From contig JAGTRP010000010.1 of NCBI GenBank assembly GCA_018261935.1, positions 1-64,000 on the forward strand: DNA of 64,000 bases, given 5' to 3'. The stretch is from Rhodocyclaceae bacterium (GTDB lineage: Bacteria; Pseudomonadota; Gammaproteobacteria; Burkholderiales; Rhodocyclaceae). The notes beneath the pieces were generated by a model. That model was not told the origin of the DNA, did no database searches, and worked only from the letters and a program-made list of their open reading frames with translations. Below, in pieces: positions 13,305-62,703 of this stretch; position 1 is the stretch's first letter; the number at the start of each line of letters is the position of its first letter. Position numbers and translations under genes: made by a program.

Positions 13305-14312
13305 ATGGAAAATCTCCACATTGGGCTGGGAGTCATCACCCTGCTGGTGATCGTGGCCCTGTTGTTCGACTTCATGAACGGCTTTCATGATGCCGCCAAC
13401 TCCATTGCCACCATCGTCTCGACCCGGGTTCTGAAGCCCCATCAGGCCGTCCTGTGGGCATCGGCCTTCAATTTCATCGCCTTCTTCATTTTCCAGCTCA
13501 AGGTGGCGACCACCATCGGCAAGGGCACCATCGACCCGGCCATCGTGGACCACTACATCGTCTTCGGCGCCCTGGTCGGAGCCATTATCTGGAATATCGT
13601 CACCTGGTATTACGGAATTCCTTCTTCCTCGTCCCACGCGCTCATTGGCGGCCTGGTCGGAGCGGCCCTGGCCAAGATCGGGCCGTCCGGGTTGATCTGG
13701 AGCGGCGTGGGAAAGATCGTTGCCTTCATTTTCATCGCGCCGGTGCTCGGGTTCATCATCGGCGGCCTGCTCATGGTGATCGTCTCCTGGATTTGCAGGG
13801 ATGTGGCGCCACGCCGGGTAGACAAGGTCTTCCGGCGTTTCCAGCTACTGTCGGCAGCGGCCTACAGCCTCGGCCATGGCGGCAACGACGCCCAGAAAAC
13901 CGTGGGCATCATCTGGATGCTGCTTATCGCCGCCGGGATGTCCAACGCGAACAGCAGCGTGCCCAACTGGGTGGTTTTCTCCTGCTACTCGGCCATGGGG
14001 CTTGGCACCTTGTTCGGGGGGTGGCGCATCGTCAAGACCATGGGCAACCGCATTACCAAGCTCAACCAGGCCCGCGGCTTCTGTGCCAACAGCGGCGGGG
14101 CGATCACGCTTTTCCTGGCGACGGCCCTCGGGGTCCCGGTCTCCACTACCCATACCATCACCGGTGCCATTGCCGGCGTCGGCTCCACCCGCGGCACCCG
14201 GCGGGTGCGCTGGGGGGTCGCCCGCGGGATTGTCTGGGCCTGGCTGCTGACCATTCCCTGCAGTGCCGTGATTTCCGCTGGGGCCTGGTACGTCGGCCGC
14301 GCCATCCTGTAA
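13305..14312 (+). CDS. pit: PiT-family inorganic phosphate transporter
   Basis: Inner-membrane low-affinity phosphate (or metal-phosphate) transporter of 335 residues with about ten membrane helices. Both inverted-repeat signatures are present: FMNGFHDAANSIAT in the N-terminal half and LGHGGNDAQKTVGI in the C-terminal half, together with the PSSSSHALIGG and PVSTTHTITGA re-entrant loops. It follows its DUF47 partner. A 47-residue membrane protein gene starts two bases after its stop. Confidence 0.95.
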   Translation: MENLHIGLGVITLLVIVALLFDFMNGFHDAANSIATIVSTRVLKPHQAVLWASAFNFIAFFIFQLKVATTIGKGTIDPAIVDHYIVFGALVGAIIWNIVTWYYGIPSSSSHALIGGLVGAALAKIGPSGLIWSGVGKIVAFIFIAPVLGFIIGGLLMVIVSWICRDVAPRRVDKVFRRFQLLSAAAYSLGHGGNDAQKTVGIIWMLLIAAGMSNANSSVPNWVVFSCYSAMGLGTLFGGWRIVKTMGNRITKLNQARGFCANSGGAITLFLATALGVPVSTTHTITGAIAGVGSTRGTRRVRWGVARGIVWAWLLTIPCSAVISAGAWYVGRAIL

Positions 14313-14313
14313 T

Positions 14314-14457
14314 TTGAAAACCCTGGCTTATCTCGCCCTGCTGGCCACGCTGGCGGGGCTGGTCTGGGCCGTTCCCGTGCTCTGGGAACTGGCCGTGGCC
14401 GGTGCCATCGGCGGGGCCTACTGGATCTTCTTCCGGCAGCAGCCGAAAAAGAACTGA
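14314..14457 (+). CDS. Small membrane protein (47 residues)
   Basis: A TTG-initiated frame directly after the Pit stop codon, encoding MKTLAYLALLATLAGLVW, a second hydrophobic stretch, and a basic tail FFRQQPKKN. One or two membrane helices with a positive cytoplasmic end are predicted. The tight spacing suggests translation coupled to the transporter, but homology is unknown. Its stop abuts that of the convergent YdcH-like gene in the palindrome TGATCA. Confidence 0.5.
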   Translation: MKTLAYLALLATLAGLVWAVPVLWELAVAGAIGGAYWIFFRQQPKKN

Positions 14458-57005: not shown

Positions 57006-58157
57006 ATGGACAAGCAGACGATGCGCTATTTTCCGAACCTGGATGGAAATGCCATCGAAGGCCTGGTCGAGCAATGGAAAAAGGCCTTTCCGGCCATGGG
57101 CGTGATGGCCCTTCTGCCGGAAGCGGAAAAGGAAGCGGTCGGCAAGCTGCAGGGCGTCTTTTCCCGACAGGGGGTGCCCCTGGTGGGGGCCATCTTCCCC
57201 GCCCTGGTGGCCGGCGAGGAATTCCGGACCAATGGCGTCTGGCTCCTGCGCTTCGAGCGCATGCCCTACGCCGCGCTCTATGATGAGCTGCCCCAGGCCG
57301 GCATCAGCGCCGCCGAGGTGGCTGAGCGCATCGCCGAGGGGGTGCGCGGGGAACTGGACGATACGCCCGATGCCACGCTCTTCCTCCTTTTCGACGCCCA
57401 GGTGCCCAACATCGGCACTCTCCTCGACGAGCTCTACCTGCATTTGGCCAACCGGGTGCACTACCTGGGAGCCAATGCCGGCAGCGAAACCTTCCAGCCC
57501 ATGCCCTGCCTCTTCGACAACGATCGCGTGGTGGGCAACGGCGTCCTGGCGATGCTCCTGCAGCCCCATCGGGGCGGCATCCTGGAGCACGGCTATGGCG
57601 CCCCGGAGGAGATGATCTATGCCACCTCCACCGAAGGCAACCGCATTGTCCACATCGACTGGCGGCCGGCCTTCGAGGTCTATCGGGAACTGATGCAGAA
57701 GCAGTACGGGGTGGAGATCACCCGGGACAACTTCTACAACTATGCCGTCCATTTTCCCTTCGGCATCGTCCGGGCCAACCATAGCGTCCTGGTGAGGATT
57801 CCGGTGATGCTGGGCGAGGACGGCTCCCTTTTCTGCGTCGGGGAGGTGCCGCCCAATTCGCTGCTGACCTTGCTGGAAGCCCCATCCGTCGATTCCACCC
57901 ATACCCAGGAAGCACTGAACCGGGGATTGGTGGGCCTGAACGGCGATATTGCCGGCCGGGAACTGCTGCTTTTCTACTGCGCCGGCCGCAACATGCACCT
58001 GGGGAACGCCGCGGCGACCCATGAGCTGGCCGGGCTGGTGCGCCTCACCGGGGTGTCCCGGCTGGCGGGCGCCAAATCCCTGGGCGAGATCGGGCCTTCC
58101 ACCGTCGGCGGATACCCGCTCTTCCACAACGCCACCCTGGTGGCAACGTGCCTCTAG
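57006..58157 (+). CDS. FIST-domain sensory protein
   Basis: 383-residue cytoplasmic FIST_N-FIST_C protein, a family proposed to sense small ligands such as amino acids. FIST_N spans about 30-200 (LFLLFDAQVPNIGTLLDEL, HYLGANAGSETF) and FIST_C about 215-360. Its stop overlaps the start of the PAS-GGDEF-EAL gene, so the two are coupled and it probably provides the input to that protein. Confidence 0.88.
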   Translation: MDKQTMRYFPNLDGNAIEGLVEQWKKAFPAMGVMALLPEAEKEAVGKLQGVFSRQGVPLVGAIFPALVAGEEFRTNGVWLLRFERMPYAALYDELPQAGISAAEVAERIAEGVRGELDDTPDATLFLLFDAQVPNIGTLLDELYLHLANRVHYLGANAGSETFQPMPCLFDNDRVVGNGVLAMLLQPHRGGILEHGYGAPEEMIYATSTEGNRIVHIDWRPAFEVYRELMQKQYGVEITRDNFYNYAVHFPFGIVRANHSVLVRIPVMLGEDGSLFCVGEVPPNSLLTLLEAPSVDSTHTQEALNRGLVGLNGDIAGRELLLFYCAGRNMHLGNAAATHELAGLVRLTGVSRLAGAKSLGEIGPSTVGGYPLFHNATLVATCL

Positions 58158-60388
58158 GCAGACCCGGCGGCCAGTACGACGGGATCCTGCCCGTCCTCTA
58201 CGACCTCGCCCTCGTCATCGGCGGCGAGGTGAGCCTGAAGCCTCTGCTCACCCGTTGCCTGCAGCGCCTCCTCTACTACACTTCCTTTCCCGCCGGTTTC
58301 GTCTGCCTCGACCCGCTTACGGCCGGGGGCGCCCCCTGGGTGGAGACCCGGATCGACGTTGCCGTCGGCGACTACAACCTGGTGGAGCTGATGGGCCGGG
58401 AGGTCCGCCTGCCGGCGGCCCTGCTGGGCCCCGGGGCGGCCACCGATGGCAATGCGGCCGACTTGCTGTCCCAGCTGCCCATACCGGCGGGGCGCTACAG
58501 CAGCTTCCTGCGCCTGCCCATCGACGGGCGGGGAGTCATCGTCCTCCTGGCCCCCCAACTCCCCGAGACCGAACTGCCGGTCACCCGCATGTTCACCCCG
58601 GTCATGGCCCATCTCGCCAAGGCCATCCTGCTTTGCCGCAATTACGACAGCTACACCGGCGGCCTCATCGCCGAGCGCGACGATCTGGCGGAAAAGCAGC
58701 ACCTGGCGGCCAAGATGTTCGAGAGCAGCTATGCGGGCATGGTCATTACCGATCCCGATGGCAACATCCTCTCGGTGAACGGGGCCTTCACCCGCATCAC
58801 GGGCTACTCGCCGGAGGAGGCCCTGGGCAAGAACCCGCGCATCCTGGCTTCGGGCCGCCACGATCAGGAATACTTCCGGCTGATGTGGCATGAGATCCTG
58901 ACCAACGACCAGTGGGTCGGGGAGATCTGGAACCGGCGCAAGAACGGGGAAATCTATCCGGAATGGCTCCTCATCGGCGCCGTGCGGGATGGCGCCGGCA
59001 AGCTCACCAACTTCATGGGCATTTTCTCGGACATCAGCGATCAGAAGGCGGCCGAGGCCCATATCGAATACCTGGTGAACCACGATTCCCTCACTGGGCT
59101 CCCCAACCGGGCCCTGCTGCGGGACCGGACCGAACATGCCATCGCCGCCGCCGCCCGGGAACAGAGGGAAGTCGCCCTGCTGTACGTGGATATCGACAAC
59201 TTCAAGATGATCAACGATTCCCTCGGGCACGCCCAGGGCGACGAGCTCCTGAAGGCGGTGGCCGATAGGCTGCGGGGCTGTATCCGGGAAATGGATACGG
59301 TCAGCCGCCAGGGGTCCGACGAGTTCCTGGTCCTCCTGACCGAACTGGACGACGGCAGCAATGCCGCCCTGGCTGCGGCCAAGATCCTGGCGAGCCTGGC
59401 CGCCCCGGTCCAGTTGGGCGACACCGCCCTCAACCTCTCGGCCACCATCGGCATCAGCCTTTGCCCCGGCGACGGCAAGGATTTCGACAGCCTCCTCAAG
59501 AACGCCGACACGGCCTTGCGCTACGGCAAGGAATTCGAGCGGGGCAGCTACCGGTTCTTCACCGACACCATGAACCAGGGGGTACGGGAGCGCTTCTTCC
59601 TGGAAAGCCGCCTGCACGGCGCCCTGGAGCGCCGGGAATTCGTGCTCCACTTCCAGCCCCTGGTGGATTTCCAGAGCGGCAGGATCGCCGGCGCCGAATC
59701 CCTGATCCGCTGGAACAGCGCCGAAATGGGCCTGATTTCGCCGGCTCGGTTCATTCCGGTGGCGGAGCAGACCGGGGCCATCGTCGCCATCGGCGCCTGG
59801 GTCCTCGGGGAAGCCTGTCGCCAGCTGGCGGCCTGGCGGGCGGCGGGGCTGCCCATCGAGCTCATCGCGGTGAACCTGTCGGCGGTGCAATTCACCCGCG
59901 GCCAGATCGTCGACACCGTGCGCCAGGCTCTGGCCGACAGCGGCCTGCCGCCGGCCTGCCTGGAACTGGAGATCACGGAATCCATCCTCATCCACGACAC
60001 CGAGCAGACCCTGGCCACCGTGCGTTCCCTCAAGGCCCTGGGGGTGCGGCTCTCCCTGGACGATTTCGGCACCGGCTACTCCAGCCTTTCCTACCTGACC
60101 CGCTTCCCGGTGGACAAGCTCAAGATCGACCAGTCCTTCACCCGCGAGCTGGGCACAAGCAAGGAAGCCGCCAAGATTGTCCGCACCATGATCGGCCTCG
60201 GCCGCAGCCTGGGGCTGGAAACGATCGCCGAGGGCATCGAGACGGCGGAGCAGAAGGGCATGCTGCAGCGCTGGGGCTGCACCCAGGCCCAGGGCTACTA
60301 CTACAGCCGGCCGGTGCCGGCCGAGGAATTCGTCCGTCTCTTCGACGCCGAGGGCGAGGCGAGGCCGGCAACCACCACGGTGCTATGA
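58148..60388 (+). CDS. PAS-GGDEF-EAL c-di-GMP signalling protein
   Basis: 746 residues, GTG start overlapping the FIST stop. Region 1-185 is sensor-like without clear identity; PAS about 185-310; GGDEF about 315-480; EAL about 490-735. The cyclase signature is GSDEF (first Gly kept, second Ser), with REMD inhibitory site, so cyclase activity is doubtful. The EAL reads ESL, but the catalytic Glu, [29 protein letters not shown] and AEGIET are kept. Probable phosphodiesterase. Confidence 0.92.
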
Positions 60389-60416: not shown

Positions 60417-61616
60417 ATGAAACTCGGAACCCCCCTTTCTCCTTCCGCCGTGCGGGTCATGCTGCTGGGCTCAGGCGAACTCGGCAAGGAAGTGGTCATT
60501 GCCCTCCAGCGCCTGGGGGTCGAGGTCATTGCCGTGGATCGCTACCCGAACGCCCCCGGCCACCAGGTTGCCCACCGCGCCCACGTCATCCCCATGACCG
60601 ACGGCGCCGCCCTGCGGGCCCTCATCGAACAGGAGCGGCCCCACCTGGTGGTGCCGGAAATCGAGGCCATCGCCACCGACACCCTGCTGGAAATCGAAAC
60701 CGAGGGCCTGGCCGAGGTGATTCCCACCGCCCGGGCCGCCAAGCTGACCATGAACCGGGAAGGCATCCGCCGCCTTGCTGCCGAGGAGCTGGGCCTGCCG
60801 ACTTCTCCCTACAAGTTCGCGGACTCCCTGGCCGAATTGCAGGCCGCGATCGATGGCGGCATCGGCTACCCCTGCGTGGTGAAGCCCGTCATGTCGTCTT
60901 CCGGTAAGGGCCAGTCCACCGTCAAGGGACCTGAAGACGTGGCCAAGGCCTGGGACTACGCCGCCGCCGGCGGCCGGGTGAACCAGGGCCGGGTCATCGT
61001 CGAAGGCTTCGTCGATTTCGACTACGAGATCACCCAGCTCACCGTCCGAGCCTGCGACGCCAGCGGCTCGGTCCAGACCTATTTCTGCGAGCCCATCGGC
61101 CATGTCCAGGTGGGCGGCGACTACGTGGAATCCTGGCAGCCCCAGCCCATGAGCCCGGCCGCTCTGGCCAAATCCCGGGAGATCGCCGCCGCCGTCACCG
61201 GCAACCTGGGCGGGCGGGGCATCTTCGGGGTCGAACTCTTCATCAAGGGCGACCAGGTCTGGTTCTCCGAAGTGAGCCCCCGGCCCCACGACACCGGCCT
61301 GGTGACCCTCTGCTCCCAGCGCTTCTCCGAATTCGAACTCCACGCCCGGGCCATCCTCGGCCTGCCGGTGGATACCGCCCTGCGGGAGCCCGGCGCCTCG
61401 GCGGTCATCTACGGCGGCATGGAAGCTGCCGGTGTCGCCTTCGAGGGCGTCGCCGAAGCCCTCGCCGTGCCCCGTACCGACCTGCGCCTCTTCGGCAAGC
61501 CCGAGGCTTTCAAGAAGCGGCGCATGGGGGTGGCCGTGTCCAATGGGGCTAGCGTCGAGGAGGCCCGGGAGCTGGCCAAGCTGGCGGCGGGGAAGGTGAG
61601 GGTAGTGGCGGGTTGA
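60417..61616 (+). CDS. purT: Formate-dependent phosphoribosylglycinamide formyltransferase
   Basis: ATP-grasp enzyme of purine synthesis using formate; 399 residues. N-terminal PreATP-grasp [20 protein letters not shown], glycinamide-contact region, ATP-grasp with [16 protein letters not shown] and [14 protein letters not shown]. Complete. Confidence 0.97.
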
Positions 61617-61808
61617 TTGGTCGCGTCCAGCCGGCTGGACGCCCTCAGTGTTGGATTGGGCCGAGCGGACACGGGATTGTGTTTGTTATGGCCCAACATC
61701 CGACCTCCAGCCGGGCTGCAAGCGCCCCTGAGGGGAAACCGCCTGCGCCCGGTGTTATTGTTTTTCAATCAATGGCTTGTGAAGCGATTTCCGGTGCGCG
61801 CCGGGAGT

Positions 61809-61824
61809 TGGCACATCTCCTGCG
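61809..61824 (+). promoter_or_regulatory. Candidate sigma-54 promoter of the double-glycine peptide gene
   Basis: TGGCAC-N7-TGC (TGGCACATCTCCTGC) has the GG-N10-GC spacing of sigma-54 promoters, with only the T before TGC replaced by C. The predicted start lies about 60 bases before the peptide start codon. The 280-base gap 61617-61896 shows no other gene. No enhancer-binding protein site was identified. Confidence 0.45.
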
Positions 61825-61896
61825 ATGAGTCTCGGCAAGGAAGGGCAGCGACTGCCCGATCCGAATCCGTACCACTCATCTTTCTGGAGAATTGCA

Positions 61897-62085
61897 ATGA
61901 AGACACTGACCATCAAAGACCTGCCTCTCAACGAGGAACTGGAATCCGAGGCGCTGGCCGCCGTGAGCGGCGGCATGGGAAGGACGCCTCAGCAGATACT
62001 TGCCTGGGAAATCTCGGGCAAGCCGGCGACATGGCAAGGCCTGGTCCTCAATGATCAGAACCGGCTCGAGCTGCCGGTCATCTGA
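61897..62085 (+). CDS. Double-glycine-leader peptide, bacteriocin-like
   Basis: 62-residue peptide. Leader MKTLTIKDLPLNEELESEAL followed by AAVSGG (Gly-Gly at 25-26), the form recognised by C39-peptidase ABC exporters. The predicted mature part is 36 residues, MGRTPQQILAWEISGKPATW and onwards, lacking Cys, so no disulfide or lanthionine. Good ribosome site (GGAG, 8 bases). No transporter or modification enzyme is in the window. It is preceded by a sigma-54-like promoter and followed by an inverted-repeat element and a small membrane protein. Function unknown; possible secreted microcin or signal. Confidence 0.75.
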   Translation: MKTLTIKDLPLNEELESEALAAVSGGMGRTPQQILAWEISGKPATWQGLVLNDQNRLELPVI

Positions 62086-62097
62086 TTCCCGAGTCCT

Positions 62098-62256
62098 GGG
62101 GTCAGGTCTTGCATTCCAGCATCACCGATAGCCTATCGCCGCGATCCCTGCCGCCCCCTTCGTTTGCAGCGCCATGACGCCAAATGATCGAGCCAGGAAT
62201 GGGCAGGGGAGGGCATGTTGTCGTTCCGGAAATGCTGCAATGCAAGCCCTGACCCC
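62098..62256. repeat. Short inverted-repeat element (MITE/REP-like)
   Basis: About 159 bp bounded by imperfect inverted ends: GGGGTCAGGTCTTGCATT at the left and the complement of AATGCAAGCCCTGACCCC at the right (26 of about 29 bases alike over a longer stretch). It has no coding content. Similar GGGGTCAGG ends occur with transposase-associated REP-like elements, by general resemblance. It separates the double-glycine peptide from the membrane protein. Confidence 0.7.
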
Positions 62257-62296
62257 GTCATTTCGATCTTTGCGTCAGCCGCTATGTCTCAGCCAG

Positions 62297-62503
62297 ATGG
62301 ACCAAACGCTTTCCATTGCCATCCTGGTCGGTTTCGTAGTTGCTTCGCCGTGGCTTCTGCTCTTCTTCTACCGGGCGACGATCCCGCCCGGCATGCTATG
62401 GGCAGCCATACTGTGCCAGTTTTTCCTGCCAATCATCGGCTGGGCCATTGCCCTGTACGTCGCGCTCAGGGACTGGGACTTCCCGCCGCCGCCTGACAGC
62501 TGA
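62297..62503 (+). CDS. Small two-helix membrane protein, possible immunity-like
   Basis: 68 residues from the ATG at 62297. Two hydrophobic helices (LSIAILVGFVVASPWLLLFF and LWAAILCQFFLPIIGWAIAL) around a short loop, ending DWDFPPPPDS. The second helix weakly resembles superinfection-immunity proteins. Located downstream of the double-glycine peptide, it could be an immunity protein, but this is speculative. No further gene is seen in 62504-62703. Confidence 0.5.
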   Translation: MDQTLSIAILVGFVVASPWLLLFFYRATIPPGMLWAAILCQFFLPIIGWAIALYVALRDWDFPPPPDS

Positions 62504-62703
62504 TCCGGGAAAACTCCGTTGCCATAGGTAGAGCGTTCGTTGCATCGGCCTCAAGGCCCTGAGGGTTTCGCTCGCCTGTTGTGCCAGTCGGCGACAATGG
62601 CTCCAATTCAAATGACACGGGTAGTGTTGCGGCCATGTTCAAGTCCGGCGGGCGAAGGCGGGGGCGGTATAATTACGCCCTTTCCGCTTTTCCTTCTCCC
62701 GCC

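Follow-up and report, generated by a model that had tools for sequence, protein, structure and literature searches.

To our knowledge, double-glycine (GG) peptide matrix systems and peptide signalling are poorly known in Gram-negative bacteria beyond the cyanobacteria and the enterobacterial microcins. In Synechococcus elongatus, EbfG1-4, which serve in the biofilm, require the C39 exporter PteB for their export (PMC4997328). Cyanobacteria also have "bacteriocin" clusters, of which groups I, II, and VI contain a long-type exporter, a SurA-type rotamase, and HlyD (PMC3140520), and in Nostoc PCC 7120 the N-terminal cNMP domain of HetC, a proposed peptide-signal exporter, binds ppGpp in vitro (PMC10986499). 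The system considered here resembles EbfG1-4/PteB in its several small GG-motif proteins, its C39 peptidase transporter, and the divergent mature parts of its peptides, but it differs in having sigma-54 promoters with a dedicated sigma-54 activator, a set of kinase, PP2C, and FHA proteins, and a 62-residue peptide encoded by an orphan gene. With the cyanobacterial long-type groups it shares a nucleotide-binding domain joined to C39 and ABC domains, a SurA/PpiC rotamase, and HlyD, whereas its two cNMP domains, its beta-proteobacterial host, the linkage of the sigma-54 activator to the exporter operon, and the other cluster genes set it apart. What sets it apart from the cyanobacterial systems is thus an activator of the sigma-54 family encoded with the exporter, the accompanying kinase/PP2C/FHA proteins, and the presence of orphan peptides. 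HetC has the same cNMP-C39-ABC architecture, although its context is that of the heterocyst and its substrate is unknown. By likeness of architecture rather than by clade assignment, the system here may work like EbfG/PteB. Class II microcins and bacteriocins have the same type of GG leader and of exporter, but here there is no immunity gene and no cationic or hydrophobic core, and the mature peptide is conserved rather than diversified. The NHLP/Nif11-type precursors of NHLM systems are similar in GG cleavage (predicted here), C39-ABC, and HlyD; however, the leader here is short, and the exporter scored 562.6 bits against the NHLM_micro_ABC1 cut-off of 853.3. Among the open-access papers searched, we found none that describes the peptide or the Burkholderiales system, which is no proof of absence.

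The window, the whole stretch of 64,000 nucleotides that was analysed, contains on its forward strand an open reading frame at 61897-62085 that encodes a peptide of 62 residues, MKTLTIKDLPLNEELESEALAAVSGG followed by MGRTPQQILAWEISGKPATWQGLVLNDQNRLELPVI. The first 26 codons (61897..61974) form a leader, MKTLTIKDLPLNEELESEALAAVSGG, which is common to six further peptides of the same genome. It is short, ends in Gly-Gly, and carries hydrophobic residues at positions -4, -7, and -12 from the cut, as in the double-glycine-leader peptides exported as PCAT substrates. The remaining codons and the stop (61975..62085) encode the predicted mature peptide of 36 residues, MGRTPQQILAWEISGKPATWQGLVLNDQNRLELPVI. 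The ribosome-binding site GGAG, read from the sequence at 61886..61889 of the same strand, lies 7 nt 5' of the ATG, and GGAG also precedes most homologues. The predicted mature peptide has a pI of 5.9, a GRAVY of -0.22, no Cys, and 25% NQST. Against the bacteriocin signal domain TIGR01847 the peptide scored 15.2 bits, below the curated cut-off of 15.7. The AlphaFold prediction from the 15 peptide sequences was modest (pLDDT 71, pTM 0.45), with a helix at 31-40 and short strands of the mature part at about 83, and we considered the model too weak to search for similar folds. No solved-structure relatives were found, the Rfam scan of 61400-62700 gave no match, and comparison with PHROGs gave nothing useful.

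A scan of the species-genome collection returned 14 full-length homologues with identities of 64-74%, which confirmed the GG-leader peptide of the earlier note as a real gene. Their hosts were Paraburkholderia, Caballeronia, Massilia, Telluria, Herbaspirillum, Cupriavidus, and Burkholderiaceae bacterium 16. The same scan gave about 30 further peptides that were mostly alike in the leader only. Averaged over all columns of the peptide, identity among the 15 sequences was 77%, and 19 of the 25 invariant columns followed the Gly-Gly, where the pattern GRTPxQIxAWELSGKPATWQGLVLgDDgrLh was kept. The leader was conserved too; the earlier note had named a leader without conservation, like a genome without an exporter, as a finding that would refute the proposed system, and neither applies. 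The pN/pS values were 0.12/0.56 for the mature part versus 0.28/0.51 for the leader, the synonymous difference being similar. Judged by these values, the mature part is under purifying selection and better conserved than the leader, and the alignments indicate that the peptide is the product of a real, selected gene.

The candidate sigma-54 promoter noted earlier is present as a -24/-12 box, TTGGCACATCTCCTGCGA, at 61808..61825 of the forward strand, with GG at 61810-61811 and GC at 61822-61823. The same box, with the -24 GG and -12 GC typical of sigma-54-dependent genes, was found in 15/15 full-length genes (that of the window and the 14 homologues). In the upstream alignment of these genes the blocks GGCA and TGC were fully conserved at -24/-12 spacing, about 70-110 nt 5' of the ATG. 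The same box stood before the majority of the paralogues with this leader, among them the leading gene in each arm of the peptide cluster on contig C19. When box and leader start were combined into one pattern, 12 of the 15 genomes contained it, and none contained the reversed control pattern. Upstream of the box lay a candidate pair of activator-binding half-sites, TGTTGG at 61649-61654 and CCAACA at 61693-61698 (forward strand), which rests on hexamer enrichment and, taken alone at this locus, could be due to chance. Of 24 sigma-54 GG-peptide promoters chosen for comparison, 20 had TGTTGG/CCAACA upstream of the box, versus 2.6 expected from shuffles and a background of 9-10.5% of 220-nt control stretches. 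Related promoters among the 24 are not independent, and they account for part of the enrichment. The hexamers in several promoters formed dyads with start-to-start spacings of 13 or 19 nt, and the motif was common to the promoters of the window and of C19. One promoter, L029, was without the hexamer, whereas the later homologue L179, which was not used in defining the box, had both the box and a hexamer at -61.

The earlier note had seen no exporter nearby and had called for a C39-type transporter elsewhere, to be sought in the genome together with peptides of the same leader. No exporter was found near the peptide gene, and the search of the genome (4.06 Mb) gave only one C39-ABC exporter, on contig C42, and the six peptides with the same leader, all on contig C19. 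The exporter consists of two cNMP domains, a C39 domain, and an ABC domain, and it is catalytic-looking, with the catalytic Cys, His, and Asp present. It follows a gene for a PpiC-type PPIase and is followed by an overlapping gene for a sigma-54 activator (L011:9781-11064; PF00158, E 7.9e-71) whose AAA+ domain has the GAFTGA loop. This activator is a candidate for the promoter of the window and the natural candidate to bind TGTTGG/CCAACA. The C19 cluster contains genes for HlyD, a NodT-type (TolC-like) channel, FHA proteins, an FHA-GAF-HD-GYP protein, a Ser/Thr kinase, PP2C, an FGE-domain (FGE-sulfatase) protein, and a DUF4399 protein. In Paraburkholderia, HlyD, PpiC, ABC, and activator genes are contiguous, with the PpiC-ABC-activator order as in C42. 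In Massilia the ABC-activator pair is kept and the ABC gene adjoins the peptides, the kinase, and PP2C. Because these genes are contiguous there, the window's genome appears to hold a split version of one system, its exporter operon, HlyD/channel genes, and peptide lying on three contigs whose cooperation is deduced from the other genomes. Another C39 match, on contig C16, was rejected as an exporter, being a C39_2-TPR protein.

Some side features of these loci were seen. Both arms of C19 carry near-identical GG peptides (83-89%; L010:8680-9257 and 14096-14368), and their sigma-54 promoters match as well, which points to a recent duplication or to gene conversion. A 555-residue repeat protein that adjoins the C42 activator (L011:11222-12889, minus strand) looks by eye like a phage tail-collar or fibre protein. 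In Paraburkholderia (L146:6025-7983, minus strand) the cluster FGE-domain protein is fused to a caspase (C14) domain, whereas its counterpart in the window's genome consists of the FGE part alone.

Leader and exporter were closely linked in their distribution. An exporter orthologue with 77-81% identity was present in 15/15 genomes bearing the 62-residue peptide, and among 399 genomes sampled from the order, the three with the leader were precisely the three with the exporter (p for agreement by chance about 1e-7, or 1.3e-5 leaving out the window's genome), a co-distribution as in PCAT substrates. The peptide itself was more patchy. In one genus the leader family was present in 112/146 genomes and the 62-residue peptide in 7/146; because of this difference the secretion system of that genus is seen as common and the peptide as an accessory substrate. 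The full peptide was found in none of 60 relatives from its own family, and vertical inheritance within that family was rejected; carriage on a plasmid or phage was rejected as well, since neither plasmid nor phage sequences nor viral contigs contained a match. The housekeeping protein PrfC was 59-60% identical to that of the peptide-bearing Paraburkholderia genomes, 66-67% to that of the Massilia group, and 78-80% to that on the Cupriavidus side, so that the exporter is about as similar as PrfC or more so. Together with the patchy distribution, this comparison suggests horizontal spread, and the 62-residue peptide is probably a horizontally spread orphan substrate.

From these findings we consider it quite likely that the peptide, although encoded by an orphan gene, is a substrate of a peptide-secretion system under sigma-54 control, in which the activator of the exporter operon turns on the gene and the C39 exporter cleaves and exports the 36-residue product. 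The activator would bind TGTTGG/CCAACA and turn on the scattered peptide genes via sigma-54 RNA polymerase. The C39 domain would then cut after the Gly-Gly to release the predicted 36-residue peptide, and the ABC part would export it together with two components from the C19 cluster, the adaptor HlyD and the NodT/TolC-like channel. The signalling proteins of that cluster (Ser/Thr kinase, PP2C phosphatase, FHA, and HD-GYP) could gate the response. Outside the cell, on the model of the EbfG peptides of Synechococcus, the peptide could act as a conserved surface/biofilm factor or a signal along with the longer, more N/Q/S/T-rich peptides. A broader reading, to which we give slightly less than even odds, is that the Burkholderiales have an undescribed sigma-54-switched peptide secretome. 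In it, one exporter operon that also encodes the activator would serve the clustered array along with several families of scattered orphan peptides, and the 36-residue GRTP peptide, almost unchanged in sequence from genus to genus, would work outside the cell as a signal or surface factor across genera.

The region 3' of the peptide gene contains two features that the earlier note had tied to it. The forward-strand reading frame at 62297..62503 is indeed there and encodes P0002, a hydrophobic two-helix membrane protein of 68 residues, for which no Pfam or NCBIfam family was found; its weak matches in relatives were fragments of larger membrane proteins. P0002 stood beside none of the 14 homologous peptide genes and was rejected as an immunity partner. 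No other neighbour was common to the 14 loci, save among close strains of the Massilia group, so that the peptide gene stands alone. Other orphan sigma-54 GG peptides with unrelated mature sequences occur in the same genomes, which makes standing alone a habit of this regulon. The 159-bp inverted repeat (62098..62256) that separates the two reading frames was likewise confirmed, with arms of 30 nt (62098-62127 and 62227-62256) that are 87% complementary, but its place in the system was not: with up to 2 mismatches allowed, GGGGTCAGGNCTTGCATT of the repeat matched the genome at 10 places and the control at none, and it had no match at the 14 homologous loci, the repeat being confined to this genome's copy of the locus. 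By its copies, it is a multicopy REP-like element outside the peptide system. Two tighter REP-like pairs were seen on contig C1, near 12.2 and 13.5 kb, and no transposase was seen by eye beside these copies.

For the role of the peptide outside the cell, a cell-cell signal (pheromone), sensed via the cluster kinase/FHA/HD-GYP proteins or another receptor, is a real possibility, since the need for recognition by a receptor would account for a mature sequence nearly invariant across families. The system is accompanied by regulatory proteins (kinase, phosphatase, FHA, and HD-GYP), and for HetC, an exporter of similar architecture, export of a differentiation signal has been proposed (PMC10986499); however, no receptor has been identified, the peptide genes have no fixed neighbour, and the larger paralogues resemble structural proteins more than signals. 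These paralogues, many with N/Q/S/T-rich mature parts, point instead to a matrix or surface component for cell-cell sticking, for which EbfG1-4 with PteB is the precedent (PMC4997328) and with which the exporter architecture class shared with the cyanobacteria (N-terminal nucleotide-binding domain, C39, ABC, SurA/PpiC, HlyD; PMC3140520) is consistent. The 36-residue peptide, with its 25% NQST, is nevertheless not N/Q-rich, and it occurs in few of the system-bearing genomes. Surface/matrix factor and signal appear about equally likely.

The patchy, accessory distribution would also suit a class II microcin-type bacteriocin with P0002 as its immunity protein, as would the GG leader and the C39 exporter, both typical of class II microcins; a bacteriocin with an immunity partner was among the readings of the earlier note. 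This is unlikely: no immunity gene adjoins the precursor at the homologous loci, a REP-like element separates P0002 from the peptide, and the mature peptide is, by its composition and alignment, soluble, acidic, free of Cys, and nearly invariant across genera, unlike a bacteriocin. The FGE-sulfatase-domain protein of C19 and a weak, sub-threshold match of the peptide to the RiPP leader model TIGR04497 might hint at a natural product (RiPP) whose core is altered by the FGE-like protein or another enzyme. We regard this as very improbable, as the core has no Cys, typical RiPP enzymes were not seen beside the peptides, and the FGE-domain protein starts by eye with a signal-peptide-like stretch and so is probably not cytoplasmic with the precursor. 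A chance reading frame with a chance promoter would be favoured by small size only and is hardly conceivable, because both peptide and promoter are conserved.

An exported orphan substrate of the sigma-54 system is the reading we prefer. Leader, promoter, and distribution tie an exporter operon with its own sigma-54 activator to about 7-15 peptide genes in each genome, and these include distant orphans. Because the 36-residue peptide is short enough for synthesis and conserved across genera, signal, matrix, and antibacterial roles can be distinguished directly. Other families of GG peptides with sigma-54 promoters, unrelated in their mature parts, were observed: a tandem array at L160 (SNYNVGNINAAFGGGF...), and the families of L154/L155 (RLPQQLVNIIQAV...), L159 (IIGGCTVVDYTN...), and L063/L165 (IATITLPPNGNPGPLPP...). 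Two genes upstream of the peptide, at 58148-60388 of the window, lies a gene whose product looks by eye like a PAS-GGDEF-EAL protein and may be unrelated.
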